Both the position numbers and the translations under genes were made by a program. A model generated the notes under the pieces. The model made no database searches, was not told where the DNA came from, and worked only from the letters and a program-made list of their open reading frames with translations. A stretch of 52,894 bases of DNA from a virus, in the IMG/VR virus record IMGVR_UViG_3300025138_000056, positions 1 through 52,894 of that record; one strand, 5' to 3'. This document shows, piece after piece, positions 1,977 through 49,243 of the stretch. Within the stretch, counting starts at the first letter, position 1. Each line of letters starts with the position of its first letter.

Positions 1977-2204
1977 ATGATAGTTACAGATGAAGTTAAA
2001 CGAACCTTCTCTAAGGAGGTAGAAAATCACGTTATATCAAAGGGTGGTAGATATATGGATGCTGTTCTTATGAAATGTGATGATTATGAAATTGAACCTC
2101 AAGTTGCGGCTAAATTAATTTCTAGACCAATAATTGAGAAGATTCAAATCGAGGGTCAAGACATTAACTTGATACCAAAAGAAAAAAGTACACTTCCCAT
2201 TTGA
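1977..2204 (+). CDS. 33: Late promoter transcription coactivator gp33
   Basis: The 75-residue product aligns with the core of T4 gp33: here RYMDAV, then AAKLI, then IIEKIQ-E--D-NLI, against SYLEAT, FAKFI, IIEKIQ-E--D-NL in T4. In T4, gp33 binds the beta-flap of host RNA polymerase and links it to the sliding clamp so that gp55 holoenzyme initiates at late promoters. This version is shorter than T4 gp33 (112 residues) and lacks much of the N-terminal extension. It ends in STLPI where T4 ends in a hydrophobic clamp-binding tail (TLDFLL). A strong TAAGGAG site precedes the ATG. The stop codon lies in the loop of the downstream terminator. Confidence 0.85.
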   Translation: MIVTDEVKRTFSKEVENHVISKGGRYMDAVLMKCDDYEIEPQVAAKLISRPIIEKIQIEGQDINLIPKEKSTLPI

Positions 2205-2219
2205 CATGGGAGTTTTTTT
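2195..2219 (+). terminator. Rho-independent terminator after gp33 (overlaps gp32 promoter)
   Basis: TCCCAT (2195-2200) pairs with ATGGGA (2206-2211) around a 5-base loop TTGAC, extended by one T-G wobble and followed by seven T residues (2213-2219). The loop holds the gp33 stop codon and most of the -35 box of the next promoter. Confidence 0.7.
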
Positions 2220-2228
2220 GTGTATAAT
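2201..2228 (+). promoter_or_regulatory. Consensus sigma70 promoter for gp32
   Basis: TTGACA (2201-2206) and TATAAT (2223-2228) are both perfect consensus hexamers with 16 bases between them. The predicted start near 2235 gives a leader of about 70 bases containing two hairpins. The -35 box sits in the terminator loop, and the terminator T-run forms part of the spacer. Confidence 0.75.
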
Positions 2229-2237
2229 ATAACAAGA

Positions 2238-2282
2238 TCTGGGGAGTTCCCAGAGTCACTCATGTCCGGGGGAGTTCCTCGG
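2238..2282 (+). promoter_or_regulatory. Tandem GAGTT-loop hairpins in gp32 mRNA leader (putative translational operator)
   Basis: Two hairpins share the 10-mer GGGGAGTTCC, at 2241-2250 and 2269-2278 (28 bases apart). Hairpin A (2238-2254) is TCTGGG/CCCAGA with loop GAGTT. Hairpin B (2266-2282) is a six-pair stem with one G-T wobble, again with loop GAGTT. In T4, gp32 represses its own translation through a leader pseudoknot. These hairpins lie where such an operator would be, just upstream of the gp32 ribosome site (AAAGG). The protein that would bind them is not known. Confidence 0.6.
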
Positions 2283-2304: not shown

Positions 2305-3171
2305 ATGAGTTCATTTGACGATTTTAAGAAGAAGTCACGATCCAGCATTGATGATCTGACAAAGGCACTGGAAGAAACCAGTGGAACAACCAAGTCATAC
2401 AAAGACGAACGTTTCTGGAGACCAGAACTAGATAAGGCTAGTAATGGCTTTGCAGTCCTCCGCTTCCTCCCAACCCCACCAAACGAAGAGCTTCCATTCT
2501 CGAAGCTGTACTCACATGGTTTTCAGGGTAAGGGTGGTTGGTTCATTGAGAATTCGCGAACCACTCTCGGGGAAAAGGATCCTGTTTCAGAAATGAACAG
2601 CGAACTTTGGAACAGTGGTATTGAATCAGATAAGGATATTGCGAGAACCAGAAAGCGTAAGCTTCAGTATATCTCAAATATTCTTATTGTTAGCGATCCA
2701 GCTAATCCACAAAATGAAGGTAAGGTCTTCCTCTACAAGTATGGTAAGAAGATTTTTGACAAGATCCAAGAAGCAGCAAAGCCAGAGTTTGCTGATGAAG
2801 AGGCAGTTGATGTCTTCAACTTCTGGGAAGGCGCAAACTTCAAGTTGAAGGTTCGTCGTGTCGCAGGATTCATCAATTATGATAAGTCAGAATTTGATTC
2901 TGCTGCTGCTCTCTTTGATGGAGATGACGCTAAGTTGGAAGAACTTTGGAACAAGCAGTACTCCCTGACTGCATTTACCGATCCATCCAACTTCAAGTCA
3001 TATGATGAACTGAAGACTCGTCTTCAGGAAGTTATTGGTGAAGATATCCGTTCCACGGAATCTAGATCATCAACCGTTGAAGATGTCAGTAGTTCTGAAG
3101 TTAATTCCATTGATGACTCAAAGGATGAAACTGATGCACTGTCTTACTTTGAAAAGCTATCTCGGGATTGA
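2305..3171 (+). CDS. 32: Single-stranded DNA-binding protein gp32
   Basis: The 288-residue product has the gp32 layout. A basic N-terminal cooperativity segment (KKKSRSS near residue 8) is followed by the OB-fold core with FWRPELDKASNGFAVLRFLP, GGWFIENSRTT, and ISNILIVSDPANPQNEGKVF. An acidic Ser-rich C-terminal tail ends DALSYFEKLSRD. gp32 coats single-stranded DNA during replication and recombination and recruits partner proteins through its tail. The protein has no cysteine, so the T4 zinc site (His plus three Cys) cannot form. Synonymous codons are visibly C-ending compared with flanking genes, suggesting high expression. The promoter and structured leader are described separately. Confidence 0.93.
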   Translation: MSSFDDFKKKSRSSIDDLTKALEETSGTTKSYKDERFWRPELDKASNGFAVLRFLPTPPNEELPFSKLYSHGFQGKGGWFIENSRTTLGEKDPVSEMNSELWNSGIESDKDIARTRKRKLQYISNILIVSDPANPQNEGKVFLYKYGKKIFDKIQEAAKPEFADEEAVDVFNFWEGANFKLKVRRVAGFINYDKSEFDSAAALFDGDDAKLEELWNKQYSLTAFTDPSNFKSYDELKTRLQEVIGEDIRSTESRSSTVEDVSSSEVNSIDDSKDETDALSYFEKLSRD

Positions 3172-24001: not shown

Positions 24002-24808
24002 ATGGCAGCTCCAAATTCCAAACAAAGTCTTATTGATTATTCTTTTAGGCGCCTAGGCGCTCCTGTAGTAGAAATAAACGTAGATATCGAACAAGCAGAA
24101 GAACGTGTGGACGATGCTCTACAGTTTTTCTCAGAGAGACATTTCGATGGTGTGGAAAGGGTTTACTTTGCATATCAAATGACTCAAGAAGATATGGACT
24201 TACAATATGTTGACACAAATAATATAGGTCCAGCAAATGGATCTGGTGGTGATGGTCCTCGTGGAAGAGATATATTATCCGTGGTCAGGGTATTTCCGTT
24301 CGGAGATCTCAGCACCACAAATATGTTTGATGTTCGCTACCAAATGGCACTAACTGATTACTTTGGTATCAATAGAGGTCTTGGTGCTCAAAGTTCAATG
24401 GGTATGGCTAGATTTTCATCTACCAAACAATACATTAACATGATACAGCAACTAATGGATCCAGAAAAGGCAGTCACCTTTAGTAAAGTAACAAATCGCC
24501 TTAAATTAGAAATGGATTTCAAACGAGATTTAAAAGCTGGGCAATACATAATAATAGAAGCCTTTGCAGCATTAAATCCAGACACATTTAGTGAAATATA
24601 CAATGATCGTTTACTCAAAGAATATACAACTGCACTCATAAAAAGACAGTGGGGTCTTAATTTAGCTAAATTTGATGGTGTCCAATTGCCCGGTGGAGTA
24701 ACTCTCCGTGGTGGACAAATATACCAAGAAGCCTTAGCTGAAATAGCTCAAATAGAACAAAGATTCTATTCTGAGTATGAACTTCCATCAGACTTCATGG
24801 TTGGGTAA
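24002..24808 (+). CDS. 13: Neck protein gp13
   Basis: The 268-residue product has the gp13 N-terminus: QSLIDYSFRRLGAPVVEINV, DIEQAEERVDDALQFFSERHFDG. The end of the protein (KRQWGLNLAKFDGVQLPGGV, RGGQIYQEALAEI) is also typical. T4 gp13 (309 residues) with gp14 forms the collar that closes the filled head and accepts the tail. It has a full AGGAGGT ribosome site and its own late promoter, and gp14 follows after two bases. Confidence 0.9.
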   Translation: MAAPNSKQSLIDYSFRRLGAPVVEINVDIEQAEERVDDALQFFSERHFDGVERVYFAYQMTQEDMDLQYVDTNNIGPANGSGGDGPRGRDILSVVRVFPFGDLSTTNMFDVRYQMALTDYFGINRGLGAQSSMGMARFSSTKQYINMIQQLMDPEKAVTFSKVTNRLKLEMDFKRDLKAGQYIIIEAFAALNPDTFSEIYNDRLLKEYTTALIKRQWGLNLAKFDGVQLPGGVTLRGGQIYQEALAEIAQIEQRFYSEYELPSDFMVG

Positions 24809-40146: not shown

Positions 40147-41198
40147 AAGTTGCAATAGTTAATGATACTCATTTCGGAGCAAGAAATGATTCGTCTATTT
40201 TTCTAAGCTATTTTCTAGAGTTTTTTCAGGATCAATTTTTTCCATACTGTATAGACAATAATATTGATCACGTTATTCATTTAGGTGACTTGATGGATAG
40301 ACGAAAATTTGTTAACTTCAACACTCTACATGAAGTTCGAACAAAGTTCTTTAATTCTCTTGAACATAATAAAATTAATCTTCATTGTACTATTGGTAAT
40401 CATGATACATTCTATAGAAATACCAATGAAATAAACTCACTCAAAGAATTATTCGATGATAAGAATGAGTTTTTTCATTTGTACGAAGAGCCTACATCAG
40501 TTCAGTTCGACAGTTTGTGTGTTGGTTTGGTACCATGGATAAACAATACAAATCGCGATAAATGTGAAGAGTTTCTACGGACTTGCTCTTGCCCTATAAT
40601 TGGTGGACATTTTGAACTAAATGGCTACGAAGTTATGCGGGGAGTTAATTTTAGAAATGGTATGTCAGATAAATTACTTCAGAGATTTGAGATGGTTTTG
40701 TCCGGGCATTTCCATAGTAAGAGTAGTAAAAATAATGTGTATTACTTGGGTACTCAATATCAGATAACATTCAGTGATCTACATGACACAAAAGGATTTC
40801 ATGTATTAGATACTGAAACTAGAGAACTACAATTTGTAGAAAATAATAGAAGAAAATTCTATCATATAGAGTATGATGATACAGATGCGAAGTCATTGTC
40901 GGGTGTAGATTTCAATTTATATAAAGATTGTTACGTCAAAGTAATAGTAAAGAATAAAAACAAAAGAAAAGTATTTGATTCATTTTTAGATAAGTTATAT
41001 CAACATAAAGTTATTGATGTTACCGTAGTTGAGGATATGAGTGATTTTGTTATTGAAGAAGAATCGATCGATATGGCTAAAGATACTCTTACTATTATCA
41101 ATGATGAGATTGATCATGATGATAATATTGAAGAGAAGGGAAAAATAAAGCAAATAATTCGTGAGCTTTATATGGAAGGTTTGAGTTCTTGGGAATAG
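40143..41198 (+). CDS. 47: Recombination endonuclease subunit gp47 (SbcD/Mre11-like)
   Basis: The 351-residue product carries the metallophosphoesterase motifs in order: NDTHFG (7-12), GDLMDRR (48-54), GNHD (85-88) and GHFHS (near 188). T4 gp47 is 339 residues. With gp46 it forms an Mre11-Rad50-type exonuclease that resects ends for recombination-dependent replication. The start lies in an A-rich stretch without a ribosome site, so translation probably depends on coupling to gp55. gp46 follows after one base. Confidence 0.95.
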   Translation: MKVAIVNDTHFGARNDSSIFLSYFLEFFQDQFFPYCIDNNIDHVIHLGDLMDRRKFVNFNTLHEVRTKFFNSLEHNKINLHCTIGNHDTFYRNTNEINSLKELFDDKNEFFHLYEEPTSVQFDSLCVGLVPWINNTNRDKCEEFLRTCSCPIIGGHFELNGYEVMRGVNFRNGMSDKLLQRFEMVLSGHFHSKSSKNNVYYLGTQYQITFSDLHDTKGFHVLDTETRELQFVENNRRKFYHIEYDDTDAKSLSGVDFNLYKDCYVKVIVKNKNKRKVFDSFLDKLYQHKVIDVTVVEDMSDFVIEEESIDMAKDTLTIINDEIDHDDNIEEKGKIKQIIRELYMEGLSSWE

Positions 41199-48412: not shown

Positions 48413-48798
48413 AACTTTCGGACTATTTGAACTCAATAAATTATACTAAAAGTGATTTATTTGATACAGAGGATCATACTGTTGAAAAGGAGTATGTCCC
48501 CTTTGTTGTCAATAGATGTCTATCTTACTTTCCAGATACAATCTTGTATGTGAATCAAATGAACCAGTATTGTTCCCTCGATAAGAATATGCAGTTTGAC
48601 TATCTTAGATTGTCGATCAGGAAGAGGAAGAGATTTAGTAAGTGGCTAAAGAGGGAATCCGTTGAGGATCTAGATCTGATAAAGGAATACTTTAGCTACT
48701 CTGATGCAAAAGCCAGAGAAGCCCTGAACATTCTCACCCCAGAAGACATCGATGAAATTAGACAAAATAGCTATAGAGGGGGTAAAAAACCTATATAA
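48409..48798 (+). CDS. 62: Clamp loader small subunit gp62
   Basis: The 129-residue product has the gp62 pattern. An N-terminal SDYLNSINYTKSDLFD segment leads to EYVPFVVNRCLSYFPDTILY, then MNQYCSLDKNMQFDYLRLSI, RKRKRFSKWLK and a C-terminal helix VKEYF-like LIKEYFSYSDAKAREAL. T4 gp62 is 187 residues, so this is a short form like those of marine relatives. It completes the gp44/gp62 loader. RegA follows. Confidence 0.88.
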   Translation: MKLSDYLNSINYTKSDLFDTEDHTVEKEYVPFVVNRCLSYFPDTILYVNQMNQYCSLDKNMQFDYLRLSIRKRKRFSKWLKRESVEDLDLIKEYFSYSDAKAREALNILTPEDIDEIRQNSYRGGKKPI

Positions 48799-48835
48799 TG
48801 TAGTTAAATTCTTTTTTATGGAATTGGGAGTTATA

Positions 48836-49243
48836 ATGTGTGAAGAAGATGACATTTTTCAAGGTTTGGGTATAGAGATAACTCTAAAAGAGAAAGAAGA
48901 CTTTCTCAAGGTCAGAGAAACTTTGACTAGAATAGGTGTATCCTCACGTAGAGAGAATAAACTATTTCAATCTTGTCATATTTTACATAAAAGAGGTCGA
49001 TATGCTATAATGCATTTCAAAGAACTTTTTACTTTGGATGGATTGGACAGTGACATATCGGATGCTGATATAAAAAGAAGAAATACTATAGTGAATTTAT
49101 TATTGGAGTGGGATTTAGTAGATACAGATGAAGAAGATTTATTTAAAGATAACCTTGGAAGTCTAGCCCAAATAAAAATAATTTCACATAAAGACAAACA
49201 CAAATGGGAATTAATACCTAAATATCATATAGGTAAAAAATAA
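48836..49243 (+). CDS. regA: Translational repressor RegA
   Basis: The ATG at 48836 follows a GGGAG ribosome site by five bases and is preferred over in-frame starts at 48752 and 48818. The 135-residue product aligns well with T4 RegA (122): IEITLKEKEDFLKVRETLTR, KLFQSCHILHKRGRY, HFKELFTLDG, and KDKHKWELIPKYHIGKK. RegA binds ribosome-entry regions of early messages, including its own. It has an N-terminal extension of about 14 residues compared with T4. In T4, gp43 follows; here a glycosyltransferase gene does. Confidence 0.95.
   Translation: MCEEDDIFQGLGIEITLKEKEDFLKVRETLTRIGVSSRRENKLFQSCHILHKRGRYAIMHFKELFTLDGLDSDISDADIKRRNTIVNLLLEWDLVDTDEEDLFKDNLGSLAQIKIISHKDKHKWELIPKYHIGKK

Follow-up and report, generated by a model that had tools for sequence, protein, structure and literature searches.

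Twin hairpins with a shared loop in the gp32 mRNA leader of a clade of T4-like phages: a conserved RNA element and candidate translational operator

What do two hairpins with the same loop do in front of the gene for a single-stranded DNA-binding protein? The question is raised by a virus record of 52,894 bases (here the window, analysed at its full length), a fragment of a T4-like phage. In the leader of its gp32 gene a first-pass annotation had noticed two hairpins that share a GAGUU loop and its core, lie 28 bases apart and differ in their stems, and this description holds in the sequence (2238–2282). In T4 and RB69, gp32 is a translational repressor of its own gene, acting through a leader structure that serves as the nucleation site for binding beside the ribosome site (PMC535899, PMC3014915), and how T4 gp32 chooses its own mRNA, despite binding single strands without sequence preference, has been described as unclear (PMC535899). 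We followed the leader through relatives of the phage.

The leader is compact (Table 1). The predicted transcription start falls just 5′ of hairpin 1, and hairpin 2 directly adjoins the Shine–Dalgarno region. Each loop is embedded in the 10-mer GGGGAGTTCC (2241–2250 and 2269–2278, exactly 28 bases apart), of which the window holds no other copy; 0.02 are expected by chance and two copies arose in none of 100 shuffles, so that the scattered copies that would have spoken against the annotation are absent. Both hairpins are contained in the minimum-energy fold of the leader (−25.3 kcal/mol), the z-score of which (−2.07) is modest alone; the decisive evidence for the pair is covariation in relatives rather than this score.

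Table 1 Features of the gp32 leader and related genes in the window
Feature	Position	Strand	Evidence
gp33-like late-transcription coactivator, upstream gene; stop codon overlaps the promoter	1977–2204	+	Pfam PF16805, E 5.7e-16
Sigma70-type consensus promoter, TTGACA-16-TATAAT	2201–2228	+	12/12 hexamer matches
Hairpin 1: stem TCTGGG (2238–2243), loop GAGTT (2244–2248), CCCAGA (2249–2254)	2238–2254	+	6 Watson–Crick pairs; single-hairpin model (R2) match 2236–2256, 26.9 bits
Inter-hairpin spacer, variable in sequence	2255–2265	+	Loop-to-loop distance in relatives
Hairpin 2: stem CCGGGG (2266–2271), loop GAGTT (2272–2276), CCTCGG (2277–2282)	2266–2282	+	6 pairs, one of them G–U; R2 match 2264–2284, 26.4 bits
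Purine-rich ribosome-binding region, AGAAAGG at 2290–2296, reaching the start codon	2283–2304	+	Sequence; in relatives, purines enriched downstream of hairpin 2
gp32, single-stranded DNA-binding protein; gene behind the hairpin pair	2305–3171	+	Pfam PF08804, E 1.6e-49; PHROG 224 (single-strand DNA binding protein), E 3.8e-113
RegA homologue	48872–49234 (region 48752–49243)		Pfam PF01818, E 6.9e-40

Several features of this leader are local. Three features overlap within 35 bases (2194–2228): the gp33 end, a terminator-like hairpin with seven T behind it, and the perfect consensus promoter. The sequence ACUCAU (2258–2263) can pair with AUGAGU (2305–2310) at the gp32 start codon, which would enclose hairpin 2 and the ribosome site in one larger structure in the window and its closest relatives; masking of the start codon was rejected as a general feature of the element, as this pairing is common only to those close relatives. 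A leader peptide running through hairpin 2 (ATG TCC GGG GGA GTT CCT CGG GAA ACA TAG, 2262–2291) was likewise discarded, the corresponding frame in leader L008 being stopless and running into gp32.

Protein-similarity searches of viral contigs supplied the relatives of gp32; together with loci from a motif scan and from phage records, they amount to 288 gp32 loci, in which 170 leaders are distinct. Loci from the motif scan, which is biased toward the motif, were kept out of the covariation alignment, a MAFFT alignment, folded with RNAalifold, of 65 distinct leaders that came from the protein searches and include that of the window. The consensus fold is exactly the two hairpins. Nine of its 11 base pairs have changed on both sides, with covariation at five of the six pairs of hairpin 1 and at four of the five consensus pairs of hairpin 2, and the result is the same for single hairpins taken as ungapped sets. 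Pairing is kept in 99.0% of pair cells, compared with 73.8% after shuffling and 37–56% with partners slid; the 65 leaders were picked from those with a detected hairpin, which favours this percentage but much less so the amount of compensating change. Because compensating mutations preserve the pairing, the twin hairpins are a real and conserved RNA element, and the covariation that the first-pass annotation had asked for in relatives is present. The 715 pair cells contain 23 G–U pairs and 3 A–C mismatches, a bias that favours the sense-strand RNA, the mRNA, as what is conserved.

With a hairpin defined as at least five pairs carrying a loop that fits [GUA][AU]G[UAG]N, 101 of the 170 leaders have two hairpins, 15 have one, one has three and 53 have none; a few loci from the motif scan enter these counts, as they do the anatomy (101 leaders) and promoter (113 leaders) counts given below. 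Two of the single-hairpin leaders, L357 and L270, look like chance matches on inspection. In the tree of gp32 proteins (FastTree, for which only local support values are available), one clade of 114 rows (local support 97) takes in every one of the 95 two-hairpin rows, 13 rows with a single hairpin and six without any. By this sampling, the hairpin pair is the mark of a single large gp32 clade, whose T4-like phages are known here from metagenome contigs only. Nested within the clade is a group of five loci (L347, L348, L350, L352 and L353) without the element, in which the leader is very short and the −10 box nearly touches the ribosome site.

Comparison of the 101 two-hairpin leaders separates what is fixed from what drifts. 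The loop consensus is [G/U]-A-G-[U/A]-N, in which the A and G are essentially invariant, as is the G–C pair that closes the loop, while the stems drift; the second pair of hairpin 2 is G–C or A–U, and the first loop base is U in about half of second hairpins. The operator-like character claimed for the element, with the loop rather than the stem sequence conserved, is borne out by these leaders. Across relatives, the GAGUU loop of the annotation has to be widened to the consensus above and extended by a conserved AG 5′ of hairpin 2. This AG is unpaired, lies 8–9 nt before loop 2 and is found in most relatives (A 91%, G 95%); the window has only its G, at 2264. Hairpin 1 is also preceded by an unpaired AG, which is more weakly conserved. 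The distance from loop to loop is 28.0 ± 1.7 nt despite the variable sequence of the spacer, and that from loop 2 to the ATG (26.9 ± 3.8 nt) is more variable. A promoter with at least 9 of 12 matches ends 4–20 nt before the first stem base in 92 of 113 related leaders. In the subclade of L009 and L019 both hairpins are kept, hairpin 1 directly follows the gp33 stop codon and there is no promoter in between; a translational role is therefore favoured over one at the 5′ end or in transcription.

The element is restricted to the gp32 leader. R1, a covariance model built on the complete element, finds one strong site per contig, always before gp32, in 12 of 12 contigs (32–157 kb). In the window, itself included among the 65 rows from which the model was built, the site scores 63.7 bits (E 2.2e-18). 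Among 84 loci from later protein searches, some on contigs close to ones already used, 19 match, all at the gp32 leader, and loci fetched after the model was built score 24–69 bits. R1 has no match in 19 annotated phage records (cyanophages, pelagiphage, Vibrio, Stenotrophomonas and T-even phage) or in three contigs without hairpins, a search made with the same tool as that of the 12 contigs, with no positive control of its own and with stricter filtering of large records. The model of a single hairpin (R2) finds the hairpins nowhere else in the window, and over the other contigs it adds a few weak sites beyond gp32 leaders; the three best of these (24583–24603 and 20945–20964 of contig G012, and 40690–40710 of G010) lie inside coding sequence and were judged to be chance. 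A GGAGUUC hairpin in the gp32 leader of S-PM2 was considered as a further instance and judged a coincidence, as S-H9-1 has an unrelated loop there. A blastn search of one leader against phages gave no match, and a search of binned genomes for the host found no gp32 relative.

How, then, does the element relate to known leader RNAs? Its closest counterpart is the gene 32 operator of T4 and RB69, with which it shares the gene, a leader site upstream of the ribosome site, a structured 5′ portion ahead of the ribosome-binding site and the proposed outcome that gp32 limits its own translation. The T4 and RB69 operator consists of a 5′ pseudoknot of about 28 nt and UUAAA repeats, whereas here a fixed pentaloop core is carried by each of two simple stem-loops. 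The covarying structure comprises two nested hairpins of 11 pairs in all, the two GAGUU loops lack mutual complementarity and, by eye, any conserved partner, UUAAA or UAAA repeats between hairpin 2 and the ATG are absent from the window and are no conserved feature of the clade, and R1 has no match in the genome of the T-even phage RB14. These observations agree with the annotation, to which the T4 architecture was not evident here. The operator of gene 43 (DNA polymerase) in T4 and RB69 is similar in being a leader hairpin with a conserved top and loop: its top bases, including the loop, are identical between phages, and its length and outer bases differ (PMC3014915). It is, however, one hairpin with a UAAC-containing loop, rather than two with an AG-core pentaloop before gp32. 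STAXI motifs are also tandem small RNA structures near genes for single-strand-binding proteins (PMC2864571), but they are pseudoknots, often with UUCG loops, near several types of gene; the manA and wcaG motifs of T4-like cyanophages are likewise leader RNA elements known mainly from marine metagenomes and T4-like phage DNA (PMC2864571), but have other structures and metabolic target genes. Rfam release 15 gave no match at the gathering threshold in the window or ten relatives, and none that was meaningful in 2100–2400 at E values up to 1. No description was found in full-text literature, a coverage that leaves out most subscription papers and all bioRxiv preprints. The element is apparently undescribed, and by analogy it may work like the gp32 and gp43 operators, although not as the T4 gp32 pseudoknot.

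We propose that the twin hairpins are a cis-acting, translational RNA operator in the gp32 mRNA leader, most likely read by gp32 itself, and give this reading a probability of roughly 0.55. It is suggested by the same gene and position as in T4, the fixed loop on exchangeable stems and the hairpin set against the Shine–Dalgarno region. What is observed is two RNA structures with a fixed loop at a fixed spacing, their restriction to gp32 and their retention without a local promoter; repression of translation, with gp32 as the most likely reader, is proposed by analogy. In the proposed mechanism, the two stem-loops would display the same G–C-closed loop about 28 nt apart to a protein that recognizes the loops and probably also the unpaired AG immediately upstream of hairpin 2. 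Since the Shine–Dalgarno region lies directly against the 3′ end of hairpin 2, protein bound there would deny the 30S ribosomal subunit access to the start site of gp32. When more gp32 is made than is engaged on single-stranded DNA, the surplus would bind both hairpins and then spread or bridge to the ribosome-binding site, shutting off its own translation.

The same operator could instead have another reader, such as RegA, a phage protein specific to the clade or a host factor, with gp32 levels set by timing or the state of the host. This is a lesser but serious possibility: a loop recognized by its sequence suggests a dedicated RNA-binding protein, and both the window and three relatives that have the element code for RegA. 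(In the window its gene adjoins clamp-loader-like and clamp-like replication genes.) RegA, which the first-pass annotation had put forward, is nonetheless an unlikely specific reader, being equally present in relatives without the element. In T4 it acts on many unstructured start sites (PMC3014915), and an operator of that kind would lie, unstructured, at several early start codons; the element is structured, is upstream of the ribosome site and occurs once per contig. For any general regulator more than one site per genome would be expected, and no leader other than that of gp32 carries the element.

Readings without a loop-reading repressor fare less well. It is known that leader hairpins of this kind can stabilize mRNAs. 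As the first stem lies 4–20 nt downstream of the −10 box in 92 of 113 leaders, hairpin 1 is there at the mRNA 5′ end or close to it, and two terminal hairpins might shield gp32 mRNA against decay or hold its ribosome site accessible. We consider this unlikely, as it leaves unexplained the invariant AG of the loop, the conserved 5′ AG, the fixed spacing and the retention of the hairpins between two genes without a local promoter. Many loops contain GGAG (GG-GAGUU), the sequence cut by the endonuclease RegB (PMC3014915), and the hairpins might present it for cleavage by a phage nuclease of that type. GGAG is in hairpin 1 of most leaders but is missing from about half of second hairpins, and no RegB gene was found in nine partial contigs of the group and its relatives by a search that does find RegB of RB14, which makes cleavage very improbable. 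Equally improbable is a DNA element, with the inverted repeats recognized at the gp32 promoter by a regulator of transcription: the repeats do adjoin the promoter in most leaders, but their arms drift freely with complementarity kept, what is conserved is the loop, which is not palindromic, G–U is favoured over A–C (23 to 3) and the hairpins persist where there is no promoter. Chance similarity of two hairpins, to which the z-score of the single-sequence fold would leave room, is ruled out for practical purposes by covariation, conservation across the clade and model matches down to E 1e-22.

Some observations weigh against the preferred reading of a gp32-read operator. Two hairpins are dispensable, because 13 members of the clade carry one and six carry none. 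Covariation between gp32 residues and loop type is strong in raw form and vanishes after correction for independent pairs, a test of low power. The literature searched on gp32 reports no preference of any gp32 for simple hairpin loops. The element is also unchanged whether gp32 keeps or lacks its zinc-ligand cysteines, and loss of these ligands was rejected as a correlate, as both states occur with and without hairpins. The cysteines that are zinc ligands in T4 gp32 are replaced (S, D, S) in gp32 of the window and many relatives, and other gp32 proteins of the hairpin clade keep the C-x7-C-x2-C pattern; judged from these proteins, it seems that the ligands disappeared or returned on several occasions.

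Leaders outside the clade have features of their own. Sister clades without hairpins have short, unstructured tandem repeats of CGUACA before the ribosome site (L078, L287 and L296; about 60 nt before the gp32 ATG), and cyanophage gp32 leaders have unstructured AAUCC-type repeats at the same place (L204, L370 and L372); their spacing of about 10 bases is an impression by eye. These repeats may be gp32 targets of another kind, and unstructured repeats at the same place would be expected if all these leaders were gp32 targets. No photosystem reaction-centre gene was found in the window and eight contigs of the hairpin group (50–157 kb, incomplete), and two cyanophage controls have it; the hosts of the group may not be cyanobacteria.

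We suggest, tentatively and at somewhat less than even odds, that here a single-stranded DNA-binding protein reads two identical hairpin loops at a fixed distance, unlike the mode of T4, and that autoregulation has evolved different RNA codes (hairpin pair, unstructured repeats and pseudoknot) at the same spot in T4-like lineages. The element adds to these viruses a conserved RNA that is missing from Rfam. For the recognition of mRNA by gp32, the hairpin clade offers a target that is small and sharply defined: two hairpins of 17 nt whose loops have an AG core, conserved on stems that are interchangeable across more than 100 distinct leaders, so that the question could be addressed with short RNAs and one protein.
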